Shown here one piece after another: positions 7,401 through 38,776 of a stretch of DNA of 64,000 nt (its first letter is position 1; the number at the start of each line of letters is the position of its first letter). This DNA is from Chitinophagaceae bacterium (GTDB lineage: Bacteria; Bacteroidota; Bacteroidia; Chitinophagales; Chitinophagaceae): positions 1 to 64,000 of the forward strand of contig JANYEB010000037.1 in the NCBI GenBank assembly GCA_025363355.1. Reading direction: 5' to 3'. Under the pieces are notes generated by a model. The model made no database searches. It saw only the letters and a program-made list of their open reading frames with translations, and was not told where the DNA came from. A program made the translations under genes and the position numbers.

Positions 7401-7495
7401 TTAGGGTTCTTTTTTTTATCTTCAGTTTTAGCAGTTGCAGGCTTTGCCTTTACACTTTTAACTTTTTTGGCAGCAGTTATTTCTAATTCAGACAT
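4436..7495 (-). CDS. malQ: 4-alpha-glucanotransferase (amylomaltase), DPE2-like, with N-terminal CBM20-type domains and a Lys/Ala-rich N-terminal tail
   Basis: GH77 motifs (GDIAIGI, FDAFRIDHILGFFRIW, CGEDLGLVPACV). N-terminal repeats resemble starch-binding domains (GNHELLGNGNIAKAL, GSNKKLNSWD). Confidence 0.9.
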   Translation of the reverse strand: MSELEITAAKKVKSVKAKPATAKTEDKKKNPKKIVAKTLKVAAETKKVVAKTAKPKTELAKGIAKALQPIVEVKKGIASEVKTEKSKPKSIKATSEKRETRNEKQETVVKPQTPNLKLQTIVFQLKFTTTYGQSLFITGNHELLGNGNIAKALSMQYFNDEFWYANIDLTGIELKDEIITYNYFLQSLDGTIQYDCGNDKQFNLSKIKSEELLILDGWNYTGYAENAFYTVPFQNVLLKENATEIAASVPKKYTHIFQTKTPLLAKGQTLCIVGSNKKLNSWDSANPILMQRSANEEQYKAFVDLSKEDFPIAYKYGVYDTIKKEFIRFEDGNNRVVYDAIKPNKQTIVNDAFANLPSSTWKGAGVAIPVFSLKTENSFGIGEFNDIKALADWSSKVGLKLIQILPINDTTATNSWQDSYPYAAISAFALNPIYINLLQSTDTVNEYLLKRLDEKQATLNAKDAVDYEEVLKTKTSFLKKIFLLQSKKTFASEDYKTFFNNNKHWLVSYSVFCYLRDEYKTANYNEWPAYRHYNKKDIAELTNEKSAAYNDISFHYFIQYHLHIQLLEATAYAHSKGIVVKGDIAIGIFRYGADAWEHSHLFNMNLQAGAPPDDFAVKGQNWGFPTYNWQQMQQDDFAWWRQRFEQMSYYFDAFRIDHILGFFRIWSIPMHAVEGILGHFVPAIPVHINEIFGRGINFNHHRFTKPFITEHTLWEQFGYDNDYVKEVFVEADGSGNYNLRKGFTTQREVEKHFASLEQNNLHEKLKIGLYNLISNVILFEVEETNGQQFHFRFGMEQTASFQNLDYNSQHQLKELYVDYFFKRQDDFWQKEAMQKLPALRRVTNMLICGEDLGLVPACVPDVMKQLGLLSLEIQRMPKDSSRDFFHPNDAPYLSVVTPSTHDMSIIRGWWEEDRAKTQKFYNNDLGQWGDAPFFCEGWINKAIVTQHLYSPAMWAIFQLQDLLGMDENLRRENPNDERINVPSNPKHYWQYRMNMSLEDLMNANDFNAMLKESVVISGR

Positions 7496-33031: not shown

Positions 33032-33784
33032 TTATCCCACTATATTCAATCTTTGCTTTACATCTTTTATGTAGGCTTTTGTAATAGCAATTTTTTTAAT
33101 TGGAGTTGCAATCTCATCTTCATCAATTTCGGTAATGCAACCTATTTGCACGGCTTCGCTTCTGTTTACTTGCAAAAAGGTATCTTGTAAATGTTTAGGC
33201 ACTTGAAACTTTAAAGTCATTGCCAAAGAGCTGCGAACATAGTGTTCTGATTTGTCTTGAAACATAAGCACAGTATAGTTATCGGCAGATGATAATAACA
33301 CTACATCTTTCCACTCCACTCGTTTTAATTTATTTCTTGTTTTAATGAAGAAGAAATCTGCTGCTAGATTTTGCTGCAACGAGCCAGTTTGTTTATTACT
33401 AAAATTTTGAATGGCAGTTTGAATGCAAGCAAACAAGGTTGCTGCATTTGGAGGTTTTACCAAATAAGCAGCAGGATTTGCTTTTATTGCTTCGGCAATA
33501 ATTGCAGTATCTGAAATGCCCGTTATAAAAATAAATGGCAAACGATACAAATTATTAATCATAGCTCCTATTTCAATGCCACTGCGGGTGCCATTCAAAT
33601 CAATATCTACCAGGGCTATGTCAAAATGTTCTTTATTTAAAAAACTAATAGCAGCTTCAAGTGTGTGTGCAATACCTTTTACAGTAAAGCCAAATTCTTT
33701 CAGCATCATGTTCATACTATCGGCTGTTATAGGGTCATCTTCTATTATTAACACTTGTATTTCTTGTAAACTTTCTTGTATCAT
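33032..33784 (-). CDS. LytTR-family response regulator (REC + LytTR); start placed at MIQESLQEIQ
   Basis: VLIIEDDPITADSMNMML, DIALVDIDLNGTRSG, PFIFITG, YLVKPPN (receiver), then FFIKTRNKLKRVEWKDVVLLSSADNYTVL...VRSSLAMTL...FLQVNRSEAV (LytTR). Confidence 0.92.
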   Translation of the reverse strand: MIQESLQEIQVLIIEDDPITADSMNMMLKEFGFTVKGIAHTLEAAISFLNKEHFDIALVDIDLNGTRSGIEIGAMINNLYRLPFIFITGISDTAIIAEAIKANPAAYLVKPPNAATLFACIQTAIQNFSNKQTGSLQQNLAADFFFIKTRNKLKRVEWKDVVLLSSADNYTVLMFQDKSEHYVRSSLAMTLKFQVPKHLQDTFLQVNRSEAVQIGCITEIDEDEIATPIKKIAITKAYIKDVKQRLNIVG

Positions 33785-33840
33785 TTGTGTTTTTTTAGAA
33801 ACTGCAAAGTACAGGCAATATAGCTGCCACCATTTTTTTT

Positions 33841-33903
33841 CATCTACAAAAAATGATGTTTCATCCACAAAAAAAGACTGTTCATCACCAAACATTAAAA
33901 AAT
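33841..33903. repeat. Direct repeat, three units at exact 21-bp spacing, upstream of the LytTR regulator; candidate LytTR operator
   Basis: Units begin at 33841 (CATCTACAAAAAATG), 33862 (CATCCACAAAAAAAG) and 33883 (CATCACCAAAC). The same unit occurs at 35174 and 35195. Confidence 0.75.
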
Positions 33904-34012
33904 AATAACTGGTTGTAGCAATTTTAACTTCTCATTAAAATTGTTAATTAATAGAGAGGTTAATTAACAGCCCCTTAAGGCGTAACTGCTTTAGGGGTTT
34001 TTTTTCAAAAAA

Positions 34013-34048
34013 AGAGTTGCCAACCTTCAAAAGGCTGGCAACTCTTTG
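34013..34048 (-). terminator. Intrinsic terminator of the hypothetical gene at 34065
   Basis: AAAGAGTTGCCAACCTT-caa-AAGGCTGGCAACTCTTT with an upstream A-tract (T-tract on - strand). Confidence 0.75.
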
Positions 34049-34064
34049 TAAAACGCTATATAAC

Positions 34065-34820
34065 TTATTTGCCTTCTTCTTTCTTTGGCTCTTCTTTTTT
34101 CTTAACAAGAGTTGCTACTATTAATTGTTTATATTGATCAATGGTGCTATTCATATTATCTATACAAGTTTTAATAGCAGTAGTATCTAAACCATCTGCT
34201 AATGCTGTACTATATCTTGAAGAAACAATATTAACTAAAGCATCGTAAGCAGTTTTTGCCTCTGGTCTTAATGCTGTAAAGCTTTTTACTTTTTTATCAT
34301 CGCTAATGCTGGTTGTTCTGTTTTTATATAAATCTATAAAGGCATTATTAGCCACTTCAATTTCATCAATCCATTCCACTCCGTCAATTACAGCAAGTGC
34401 AGCTATAAGGTCGTTTTTTGTTGTGCAATCTTTGGCAATAGTGCTAAGTGTTGCCGATTCTGCTGCATTATTTTCTCCTGCAATATCGCTACCAAAAGCT
34501 TTTAGGTAATTAAGTATAGCAGTGGCAGCATCCCTTTTTGCTTGCTTAGGATTTTTTTGTAGGGCTTTTAACCAAGCCACAAACCCCGATATAGCAATAT
34601 CTCTTCTTTTATCGGCTGCAATTAGTTTTTGAGTTTCTTCGTTGGCAGCTTCAATGGCAAGTGCTGTTTGCAAATCGGGTAGCAAACTGTTTAGTGCATC
34701 TCGTTCGGGTTTAATCTTGCTTTTTACAACATCTGTTTTGTTGGCAATGCCAATAATGAGGGTTAAAAACATAAAGAACTCTTTAGCCGTAAGATCTTTT
34801 GTTGAAATTTTGTGAATCAT
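34065..34820 (-). CDS. Hypothetical helical protein, possibly DUF6261-like; start trimmed to MIHKISTKDL
   Basis: Helix-rich ~250 aa with a C-terminal Lys/Glu tail (VKKKEEPKKEEGK); own terminator. Family name is from recall, not a search. Confidence 0.5.
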   Translation of the reverse strand: MIHKISTKDLTAKEFFMFLTLIIGIANKTDVVKSKIKPERDALNSLLPDLQTALAIEAANEETQKLIAADKRRDIAISGFVAWLKALQKNPKQAKRDAATAILNYLKAFGSDIAGENNAAESATLSTIAKDCTTKNDLIAALAVIDGVEWIDEIEVANNAFIDLYKNRTTSISDDKKVKSFTALRPEAKTAYDALVNIVSSRYSTALADGLDTTAIKTCIDNMNSTIDQYKQLIVATLVKKKEEPKKEEGK

Positions 34821-34912
34821 AACTTTTTGAATTTTAAGTGTGAAGAATGAATTTCGAAAATAAGACACCCTTTTTTCTTTTCAAAAAAATAAGTGTTAAA
34901 ATTTTCTAAACA

Positions 34913-35158
34913 TTATTTCAAACTGAAATTGAGCAAAAGAAGTTTCTGTGGCATTATTTCAAAGTGAAATTGGTCAAAAGAAGTTTCCGTGGGGTTATTT
35001 CAAACTGAAATTGGGTAAGAGAAGTTTCCGTGGTGTTATTTCAAAGTGAAATTGAGCAAAAGAAGTTTCTGTGGCATTATTTCAAAGTGAAATTGAGCAA
35101 AAGAAGTTTCTGTGGCATTATTTCAAAGTGAAATTGAATAAAAGAAGTTTCCTTAGCT
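34913..35158. repeat. Noncoding tandem array: 6 units of exactly 41 bp, each with a TTTCA-N3-TGAAA dyad
   Basis: Units start at 34913, 34954, 34995, 35036, 35077, 35118. Consensus TTATTTCAAAGTGAAATTGAGCAAAAGAAGTTTCTGTGGCA; units 4 and 5 are identical. Confidence 0.97.
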
Positions 35159-35173
35159 TAATGTTCAATTTCT

Positions 35174-35215
35174 CATCCACAAAAAAAGCTAGTTCATCCA
35201 CAAAAAAAGTGGGTT
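35174..35215. promoter_or_regulatory. Pair of 21-bp direct repeats upstream of the Cys-repeat T9SS protein; candidate LytTR operator
   Basis: CATCCACAAAAAAAGCTAGTT (35174) and CATCCACAAAAAAAGTGGGTT (35195); same 15-mer as in the promoter of the LytTR gene. Confidence 0.75.
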
Positions 35216-35284
35216 TAGTCCCAGTGTGGGTGTAAGAAATGTATTTTTCATTTTTTTTACATTCTTTAACCAAAACAAAAAAGT

Positions 35285-38200
35285 ATGAAAACAGAAATTA
35301 CTACACCAAAGCAAGTAAAAGCATCTTTACTAATTCTATTTTTATGTGGAATGTTTTTTAATGGTTTTTCACAGTCTTTAACTATAACCACACCCGATGC
35401 AACTTTTTGCGAAGGAGGGTATAGATATATTTACGCCAACTTTACCCCCCCAACTAATATACAAAATTATGTTGGTTATCAAATAACTGATATTAGATGG
35501 TATAAAAGTGGTCCTTACGGCACTACTTTAATACCTAGTAACCTCTACGGTTACCTCTCTTGTTATGCATACGAAACAGGGCGATATTATTGTCAAATTG
35601 ATTATAGTATTAAGACTTCATACCAATACGTAACAAGTACCTACTGCTGCCAATCTGGTCCATTTGGATCTTGCAAGAAATACTGTAATAATTATGCAAC
35701 AGGATACACAACTCAAAACTATTATCAACTTTGGTCGAATAACTCTTGCTATATAACAGTAAAACCTAAATCTTACACAACACAACACATTTCTATTTGT
35801 AGTAATGCTTTGCCATATAATTGGAATGGCTATTCTTTGTATAGCGAGGGTACCTATTATAAGACTCTATACAACTCAGTTGGCTGCGATAGTGTAGTAA
35901 CCTTGAATTTAAGCGTAGGAACTTCTGGTGCAACTTCTTACGATAGTGCTATTGTTTGCAGTAGTGGATTACCCTATAGTTGGAATGGATTGAGTCTTTC
36001 AACTGCTGGGGATTATTCACAAAACTTCACTTCTGCAAGTGGTTGTGACAGCATTGCTAACTTTAAATTAATTGTCAGTGCAGCTAACACATCATCAAAT
36101 TATGCTACTACCTGCAGCAGCTCTTTGCCATATTTATGGAATGGAATTAGTTGCGATAGTTCGGGGACTTACTCAAAAATATTTAATTCACCGGGTGGTT
36201 GCGATAGTGTAGCTGTTTTAAACCTAACCGTGCATCAAACAACATCATCTGTCACCAATATTCTTGCCTGCCAAAATGCAGTGCCGTTTTGGTGGAATAA
36301 TAAGCTTGTTAATGTAGGAAGCGATACTGTACATCTTACAAATGCTACTGGCTGCGATAGTATTGCAATTGTAAACGTTACTATTAAGCCTGTTGGCACT
36401 TCAACACGAACTGTTAATATTTGCCCTACGGGTTTGCCTTATGCCTGGAACAATAGCACTTATGGAACAGCAGGTGTATATACACAACTATTTACAACAA
36501 ATAGTGGCTGCGATAGTGTTGCTACCCTTAATTTAATTGTAAACACGCCAACTTCCTCAACAAATAATATAGGTATTTGTCAATCTGCATTGCCTTACAG
36601 TTGGAACGGTAATAGCTACACATCAGCAGGAACTTACAGTGTTCATTTAATAAATGCCAATGGATGCGATAGTGTAGCTACTCTAAATCTATATATTAAT
36701 AGCACAAGTAGTACCACACAAAGTATATTGGTTTGTCAAAGCAGTTTACCTTATTTATGGAATGGTAATAGTTATTCCACAGCTGGAACTTATATAGCAC
36801 ATTTAAACAACAGCAATGGATGTGATAGTTCTGTTACATTATACTTAAGCGTTTCATCTGCAGATTCATCTTCAACATCTGTAACAATCTGCCGTTCTCA
36901 ACTACCATACAGTTGGAATGGACTTGTATGCCAACAAGCGGGTAAATACCTAGTCCATTTGTCTACAAAAAAGGGTTGTGATAGTTTAGCATATTTAAAT
37001 CTAAATGTAATAGCACAAGTAAAAAAAGTCACTGTGCAATCATCTGTTTCTCCTAACGATTCGGTTTGTTTTTCAAAACCAATTACTTTCACTGCAATCC
37101 CAACAATTGACTCGTCATTATGTAACCTTTCAAATAATTTATTCTCATTCAACTGGAGGAAAAATAATACCGAAATTAGAATATCAAATACAGTAATCTA
37201 TTCTAGTTCCACCTATATAGATAGTATTTCTAAGGGGAATGACTCCATATTTATATACTTATTATCAACTGAATTGCCTGGCACTACAAACACTTATTGT
37301 ACAGATGGTGGGTTTCTTATTCGTAGCATCAATACAATTGTTACAAAAGTAAAAACACCTAAGGTAATGCCTGTTATAACTTTTCGACCTACTTATCCAT
37401 CATACGCTACAATTTTTGATTCAAAGACAGGAATTTTAGATCAAGGGTTAATTAGTCTTTGTTCTGTTAATGATTATTTAACTGCAGAATCTAATGTAAC
37501 GAATGGCATTTGGAGTGCTCAAGATACTAACTTAATTAAAATAACCACTTCAATAGTAAATAATAAGCAAACTGCAATTTTGAAAGCAACAGGTTTGAAT
37601 GGCGTTGCTAAAGTGTTATACAAGACCAATGATAATGGATGTTCAATTACGCTTACTGGAACAATTGCAATTGATACAATTAACCTACTAAACAATGCAA
37701 TTATTACAGGGCCTTCAGAAACTTGCTCTGGCACTATAGTACAGTACACATCTTCTGTGTCTGGTGGTTTATGGACAACCTATAACAGTGGTTTATATCT
37801 TCAGGGTACAGGTCGATATGGGGAGTTTAATGCTAAAATAGGATCAGCATTTTTACCTCAGAATGTTTATGCAAATACTTATATCGGTTATTATAAGGAT
37901 CATTACAATGCAACGGGATCTTGCCGTAGTTACATACAAAAAACTGTTAAAATTCATCCTGCACCTACTGCTTATCCAGTTATTAACGGTCCTTCTTCTA
38001 TTTGTGTTGGTTCAACAGCACAGTTCTCTAGTAATTTCCCTATAGGTTACTGGTCGTGTACTGGTGGAGCAACGGTAAATGGAGGAACTGGCGAGTTTAA
38101 AGCTGGAGCTGCAGGAGGCACTTATCTTTTATATAATGCTGTAGTGAATTCTATGGGATGCACTAATTCTACTACAAAGACAATTACAATCAACCCACTG

Positions 38201-38776
38201 CCAGCAGTACCATTAATATCTTTTGGCTCAAATGCTGGCAATCCGACAGCAGGAACAGGCTTATCTGGTCAATACTGTGTAGGTAAGAAGTTCACATTAG
38301 TAGGCAATCCAACTGGTGGACACTTTACGTTTACAAATACGGCCACAGCAATTATAGCAGATAGTTTGGTATCAGCTAACAATTGGTGGGGAACTGTGAA
38401 AATAGTAGGTGTAGGAACAGGTAATATAGTTTATACAGTTACGAATGCATCAGGTTGTTCAAACTTTAGATCTATGGTAGGAAAAGGAGTAGCTTGTGCA
38501 GGTAGAGGTGTAGACATCAACAGTGATGCTACTAAACCAGTATTTGACTTTACAATGTATCCAAATCCTGCAAAAGGGTATATCAACTTAAATGTTGAAA
38601 CCTTAGTTGGTGCTGGAAGTATTGTAGTTACAGACTTATATGGCAAAACAGTTAAGTCTCAACCTTTGAGTATGGGAACAAACACAGTAGATATTGCTAA
38701 TCTAAGTAAAGGGTTTTACTTGGTAAGTACGATTACAAGCGAAGGAAAAACAACTAAGAAATTAGTGGTGGAATAA
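35285..38776 (+). CDS. Large secreted T9SS cargo protein with 8 Cys-containing ~50-aa repeats and type-A sorting domain
   Basis: Signal peptide (LLILFLCGMFFNGFSQS). Repeats of form C-x4-LPYxWNG...GTY...GCDSVATLNLxV. C-terminal MYPNPAKGYINLNVE...VTDLYGKTV...LSKGFYLVSTITSEGKTTKKLVVE. Confidence 0.92.
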   Translation: MKTEITTPKQVKASLLILFLCGMFFNGFSQSLTITTPDATFCEGGYRYIYANFTPPTNIQNYVGYQITDIRWYKSGPYGTTLIPSNLYGYLSCYAYETGRYYCQIDYSIKTSYQYVTSTYCCQSGPFGSCKKYCNNYATGYTTQNYYQLWSNNSCYITVKPKSYTTQHISICSNALPYNWNGYSLYSEGTYYKTLYNSVGCDSVVTLNLSVGTSGATSYDSAIVCSSGLPYSWNGLSLSTAGDYSQNFTSASGCDSIANFKLIVSAANTSSNYATTCSSSLPYLWNGISCDSSGTYSKIFNSPGGCDSVAVLNLTVHQTTSSVTNILACQNAVPFWWNNKLVNVGSDTVHLTNATGCDSIAIVNVTIKPVGTSTRTVNICPTGLPYAWNNSTYGTAGVYTQLFTTNSGCDSVATLNLIVNTPTSSTNNIGICQSALPYSWNGNSYTSAGTYSVHLINANGCDSVATLNLYINSTSSTTQSILVCQSSLPYLWNGNSYSTAGTYIAHLNNSNGCDSSVTLYLSVSSADSSSTSVTICRSQLPYSWNGLVCQQAGKYLVHLSTKKGCDSLAYLNLNVIAQVKKVTVQSSVSPNDSVCFSKPITFTAIPTIDSSLCNLSNNLFSFNWRKNNTEIRISNTVIYSSSTYIDSISKGNDSIFIYLLSTELPGTTNTYCTDGGFLIRSINTIVTKVKTPKVMPVITFRPTYPSYATIFDSKTGILDQGLISLCSVNDYLTAESNVTNGIWSAQDTNLIKITTSIVNNKQTAILKATGLNGVAKVLYKTNDNGCSITLTGTIAIDTINLLNNAIITGPSETCSGTIVQYTSSVSGGLWTTYNSGLYLQGTGRYGEFNAKIGSAFLPQNVYANTYIGYYKDHYNATGSCRSYIQKTVKIHPAPTAYPVINGPSSICVGSTAQFSSNFPIGYWSCTGGATVNGGTGEFKAGAAGGTYLLYNAVVNSMGCTNSTTKTITINPLPAVPLISFGSNAGNPTAGTGLSGQYCVGKKFTLVGNPTGGHFTFTNTATAIIADSLVSANNWWGTVKIVGVGTGNIVYTVTNASGCSNFRSMVGKGVACAGRGVDINSDATKPVFDFTMYPNPAKGYINLNVETLVGAGSIVVTDLYGKTVKSQPLSMGTNTVDIANLSKGFYLVSTITSEGKTTKKLVVE

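Follow-up and report, generated by a model that had tools for sequence, protein, structure and literature searches.

A direct repeat with a period of exactly 21 bp precedes, in the window studied (the whole 64,000-nt stretch of a Chitinophagaceae genome that was analysed), both the gene for a REC-LytTR response regulator and one that encodes a large secreted protein with a type IX secretion system (T9SS) sorting domain (Table 1). Since related bacteria keep the same arrangement, the repeat is very probably this regulator's switch, that is, the operator through which it would control its own gene and that of one T9SS cargo protein; we put the probability of this reading at about 0.84. An earlier note on the window had proposed such autoregulation together with control of the adhesin-like gene, and had placed the probable start of the regulator gene at 33784 and the T9SS ATG about 90 bp beyond the second repeat pair, in agreement with the starts found here (33784 and 35285). 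Comparison of genomes argues for the proposal: the motif tracks the orthologues of the regulator over five genera, keeps a fixed distance to a −7-like box, and in its other occurrences precedes T9SS cargo genes. Missing from the earlier note were the DUF6261 gene, the six-copy 41-bp array and the AGTCCCA companion of the copy on the T9SS side.

Table 1. Genes and sequence elements of the locus (window coordinates)
Feature	Position	Strand	Basis or remarks
Histidine kinase (HisKA + HATPase_c), 686 aa	30929..32989	+	Pfam; convergent with the regulator gene
REC-LytTR response regulator, 250 aa	33032..33784	-	Pfam Response_reg 61.7 bits, LytTR 29.7 bits
Putative −7 box of the regulator gene, TACTTTGC	33804..33811	-	Comparison with TAnnTTTG/TAnnTTGY (PMC9723704)
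Putative operator copy 1, facing the regulator	33839..33889	-	GTAGATGAA and GTGGATGAA 21 bp apart, degenerate third unit GGTGATGAA
DUF6261 gene, between the two operator copies	34065..34820	-	Pfam PF19775
41-bp tandem array, ~5.9 copies, beside operator copy 2	34911..35151		TRF score 377
Putative operator copy 2, facing the T9SS cargo gene	35172..35207	+	CTCATCCAC and TTCATCCAC units, 21 bp apart
AGTCCCA companion element	35217..35223	+	Lies 22 bp past the last operator unit, on the side of the T9SS gene
Large secreted protein, 1163 aa, C-terminal T9SS sorting domain	35285..38776	+	Por_Secre_tail, E=7e-13

The 21-bp repeat is confined to two promoters of the genome

The CATC-type units described earlier were all present at their positions with the exact period of 21: CATCTACAAAAAA begins at 33841 and CATCCACAAAAAA at 33862, 35174 and 35195, and the third unit in front of the regulator gene (CATCACCAAACA, at 33883) is in register and degenerate. 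The 15-mer CATCCACAAAAAAAG, previously counted three times, has exactly three copies in the whole 3.6 Mb genome, all of them at this locus. A genome-wide scan, which the earlier note had recommended for defining a regulon, located the tandem CATCYACAAAAAA pair (21 bp apart, 0 mismatches) at exactly two places in the 3.6 Mb, namely these two promoters, and with up to 3 mismatches tolerated it added only weak matches at chance level; the predicted regulon has no members but these two promoters. When the window was resampled (order 1), none of 20 resamples had such a pair, versus the 2 observed, and the reversed-pattern control, run with the refined pattern, gave 0 matches in this genome. The 21-bp repeat is real, and not the product of chance.

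Read in gene orientation, the repeat takes the form GTGGATGAA-12 bp-GTGGATGAA, which is the 9-12-9 layout of LytTR operators (two direct repeats of ~9 bp with a spacer of 11–13 bp). The unit shows no obvious match to the AgrA/ComE-type LytTR consensus. Read on the strand of the T9SS gene (TCCACAAAA), it resembles the ACCACTTAN-type repeats of PMC6193735 in part only; the sequences of such units are reported to vary widely.

The motif accompanies the close orthologues of the regulator

The LytTR domain of the regulator (PF04397) gave a modest score, 29.7 bits, above the cut-off of 22.6. Orthologues were sought among genomes of the family and order, drawn twice (299 and 399 genomes). Besides the window's own regulator, six close orthologues were recovered at 65–91% identity, after which identity drops to ~44%; these six belong to the window's genus and four others, five genera in all. 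The resulting set of seven is made up of G000 (this genome), G136, G048, G021, G202, G038 and G620, and the LVDIDLNG region of the regulator was aligned across all of them. The motif GTGG(A/T)(T/C)GAA-12 bp-GTGG(A/T)(T/C)GAA lies, exact or degenerate, upstream of all seven genes in regulator orientation: apart from this genome, the pattern matches G136, G048, G021 and G202, while G038 and G620 carry degenerate forms. The spacer is of 12 bp at both promoters here and in five genomes, and of 13 bp in the degenerate G620 copy.

When up to 3 mismatches were allowed, one or two matches per genome were obtained in five orthologue-bearing genomes, and none with the reversed control. A looser pattern, run over 399 family genomes, found a match in eight, its reversed control providing one. 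Five of the eight are orthologue carriers, in which the match is at the locus or, in the case of G021, before a second cargo gene; none of the extra matches (G179, G348 and G286) lies beside a LytTR gene. The motif was absent from this genome's other six LytTR genes, which rules it out as a general LytTR motif, and the regulator homologues of ~44% identity showed no sign of it in their upstream regions.

The repeats abut the putative promoter of the regulator gene

A TACTTTGC-like box lies shortly upstream of the regulator start codon in all seven orthologues. In this genome, 39 bp separate the start of the proximal operator unit from that of the TTTGC in TACTTTGC, and in 7/7 orthologues the proximal 9-mer starts 38–40 bp before the TTTGC of the box. 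The −7 element of Bacteroidetes is TAnnTTTG, and a one-base-shorter form, TAnnTTGY (SM5), is known in Flavobacterium psychrophilum (PMC9723704). The sequence of TACTTTGC would fit an SM5-like TAnnTTGY box as well as a variant sigma-A box, TAnnTTTG; the upstream counts bearing on this choice were taken within the window, and are very few. The TACTTTGC box also precedes another gene of the window (start at 7495, minus strand).

With the box assigned in this way, the repeats stand just upstream of the putative regulator promoter, directly against its −33 region. The autoregulatory LytTR operators of Streptococcus mutans consist of 9-bp repeats with 12-bp spacers, lie 4–11 bp upstream of the −35 box, and act positively (PMC6193735). 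Since an operator abutting the −33 region occupies a position typical of activation, autoregulation would most likely be positive. On the cargo side, the intergenic sequences compared contain no recognizable −7 box at a constant distance from the operator or downstream of AGTCCCA.

Gene order is conserved and the cargo proteins differ

The conserved order is that of a histidine kinase gene, the convergent LytTR gene, the operator, and the gene of a large secreted protein in divergent orientation. The kinase adjoins the regulator in all six relatives; it has HisKA and HATPase domains, and the neighbouring regulator a REC domain with its phospho-acceptor Asp (Pfam and the aligned LVDIDLNG region), and the two are likely partners. 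A single operator lies between the regulator gene and the divergent secreted-protein gene in G048, G038, G202 and G620, while in this genome and its closest relative, G136, the operator is duplicated, with one copy per gene. In G021 the main cargo region is masked, and a second operator copy precedes the gene for another sorting-domain protein on contig C80.

The AGTCCCA element was present on the cargo-facing copies of all seven genomes, 22–23 bp from the operator in the direction of the cargo gene, and absent from the two operator copies that face the regulator alone. Since it segregates with the cargo gene, it may be a promoter or binding element of the cargo side. It was also considered as an exact third 21-bp unit, but its spacing of 22–23 bp and its different sequence led us to treat it as a separate element.

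The bodies of the cargo proteins differ, with beta-propeller, FG-GAP, NHL/laminin-G and Ig-like architectures. A type A sorting domain (Por_Secre_tail) was found at six sampled sites (the window, G136, G048, the second site of G021, G202 and G620), and none was detected in the split cargo gene of G038. The cargo proteins of G000 and G136 have a common C-terminal region with 45% identity. In G038, the cargo gene beside the operator consists of two ORFs (L046 3977-8744), and a frameshift or an assembly error is possible. In G048, two cargo genes (L043 4408-8778 and 12415-18555) flank the regulator-kinase pair; their products share ~1040 residues at 82% identity, and only the gene on the regulator side has the operator.

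Between the two operator copies of the window lie a DUF6261 gene and a tandem array. The mechanical ORF of the former is listed from a GTG at 34868, and an ATG lies at 34820; the gene is absent at the corresponding place in the relatives and, on this comparison, is outside the conserved module. The 41-bp array has an internal inverted repeat (ATTTCAAAGTGAAAT). It was rejected as a part of the operator because related copies of its unit form a short array between convergent genes on another contig (G000:C115:2942-3016), and it was treated as a separate, probably independent, intergenic repeat. No array of the 41-bp type was seen in the intergenic sequences of the relatives with a single shared operator. 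In G136, a diverged array with a period of about 41–42 bp lies between the two operator copies (L024 3740-4150).

Proposed mechanism and descent of the module

According to the mechanism proposed, the regulator would be phosphorylated by the convergent histidine kinase and would then bind both operator copies, two molecules probably sitting two turns apart on the same face of the helix, as with other LytTR proteins. Binding at the regulator's own promoter would produce positive autoregulation, and binding at the second promoter would control the T9SS cargo gene, with AGTCCCA perhaps serving as an additional element on that side. The ancestral form was probably a single operator common to the divergent pair; here it would have been duplicated, each gene keeping a copy after DNA was inserted between them.

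RpoB groups G202 with G000 and G136 (92.6%), far from G021 (82%). By regulator sequence, G202 instead has its nearest neighbours in G038 and G620 (73%), and the regulators of G021 and G000 show an unusually high similarity (78%). Like the regulator, and unlike the RpoB grouping, the proximal operator unit unites G202, G038 and G620, in all of which it reads GACGAA. This discordance between regulator and RpoB suggests that the regulatory module moved horizontally; ancient paralogy is a possible explanation as well. More tentatively, the locus may be viewed as a horizontally moving module of kinase, LytTR regulator and private operator whose sole outside target is one T9SS cargo gene, with the cargo swapped between species while the operator and AGTCCCA are kept, and with the operator at times copied to other cargo genes (the second site of G021) or split in two (this genome). 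We hold this broader picture to be somewhat short of an even chance.

Relation to known systems

The candidate operator resembles those of AgrA (agr P2/P3) and of HdrR and BrsR of S. mutans in having two direct repeats of ~9 bp separated by 12 bp (PMC6193735, PMC4227749), placed just upstream of the promoter's upstream box and in front of both the regulator's own gene and a target gene. It differs from them in the sequence of the repeat, in that the target is a T9SS cargo gene in Bacteroidota, in the extra AGTCCCA on the target side, and in that a convergent kinase of the HisKA type accompanies the regulator. With the LytTR Regulatory Systems (LRS) it shares a LytTR protein and autoregulatory direct repeats upstream of that protein's promoter. 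In an LRS, however, the LytTR regulator shares its operon with a membrane inhibitor, whereas here a receiver-domain regulator goes with a histidine kinase; no gene for a membrane inhibitor lies beside the regulator, whose neighbours are the convergent kinase and, upstream, DUF6261 or a secreted protein. Another two-component system of the phylum with a bearing on type IX secretion is PorXY-SigP of Porphyromonas gingivalis. PorX is not known to be a LytTR protein. The PorXY-SigP cascade is described as acting on the secretion machinery via an ECF sigma factor (PMC4800418, PMC5005315), whereas here the regulator would act on one adjacent cargo gene.

Systems of this kind are known, and the new details are the operator sequence, the private two-promoter regulon, the exchange of cargo and the AGTCCCA companion. 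No description of a LytTR operator in Bacteroidota was found in the literature searched. With this locus, a LytTR response regulator of the phylum would have an operator that is both specific and conserved, and a single sensor system would be tied to a single secreted surface protein, which makes the regulation of individual T9SS cargos testable. Its private, one-target design and its changing cargo suggest a sense-and-display cassette.

Alternative explanations of the repeats

A different factor, such as a global regulator or an ECF-associated activator, might bind the repeats and control both genes. The link between motif and regulator was drawn from sequence, and AGTCCCA shows that at least one further conserved element exists on the cargo side; we nevertheless regard this explanation as unlikely, since the motif occurs only with the orthologue group of this regulator and at one or two places per genome, which argues against a global regulator, for which more sites would be expected. 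Moreover, the 9-12-9 geometry is typical of LytTR proteins, and the GACGAA variant tracks the regulator clade formed by G202, G038 and G620 although RpoB places G202 with the window's genus. Intrinsic curvature or UP-like elements, generated by A-tracts 21 bp apart with no dedicated binding protein, would suit the runs of six or seven consecutive A/T that most units contain and that recur every two helical turns. This is very improbable, however: the A-tract, interrupted as it is in G048 (TTTATT) and G021 (TTTCTT), is no better conserved than the GTGG..GAA core, and curvature leaves the restriction to the orthologues of a single regulator unexplained. We give slightly less credence still to the idea that the repeats are a small intergenic element, mobile or tandem, that plays no part in regulation and is comparable to the 41-bp array. 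A tandem array of another unit does directly adjoin operator copy 2, but the 41-bp unit also lies elsewhere between convergent genes, while the 21-bp pair is confined to these promoters and has been kept across five genera at a fixed distance from the promoter.

The idea that the repeats are coding, as an N-terminal heptapeptide extension of the regulator, was rejected on the stop codons of the orthologues and the position of the promoter, and we allow it next to no probability. The period of 21 does keep the frame, which in this genome is open to an upstream ATG and reads DEQSFFV/DETSFFV/DEKKWW, as the earlier note had described. Yet the open frames of the orthologues span 250–275 codons as against 299 here (stop to stop), a TAA follows the repeats in G136, a conserved −7 box lies between the repeats and the ATG, and the copy of the repeats that precedes the T9SS gene lies in no conserved frame. 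Since the frame is open through the repeats in this genome only, and the promoter lies downstream of them, the repeats are not coding. The earlier warning about a mis-extended N-terminus was justified, and in practice gene callers should not extend this regulator into its operator. The mechanical ORF at the operator copy on contig C80 of G021 (L045 3671-3706), where the cargo gene is unlinked, also extends through the operator, and is a start-site trap like that of the window.
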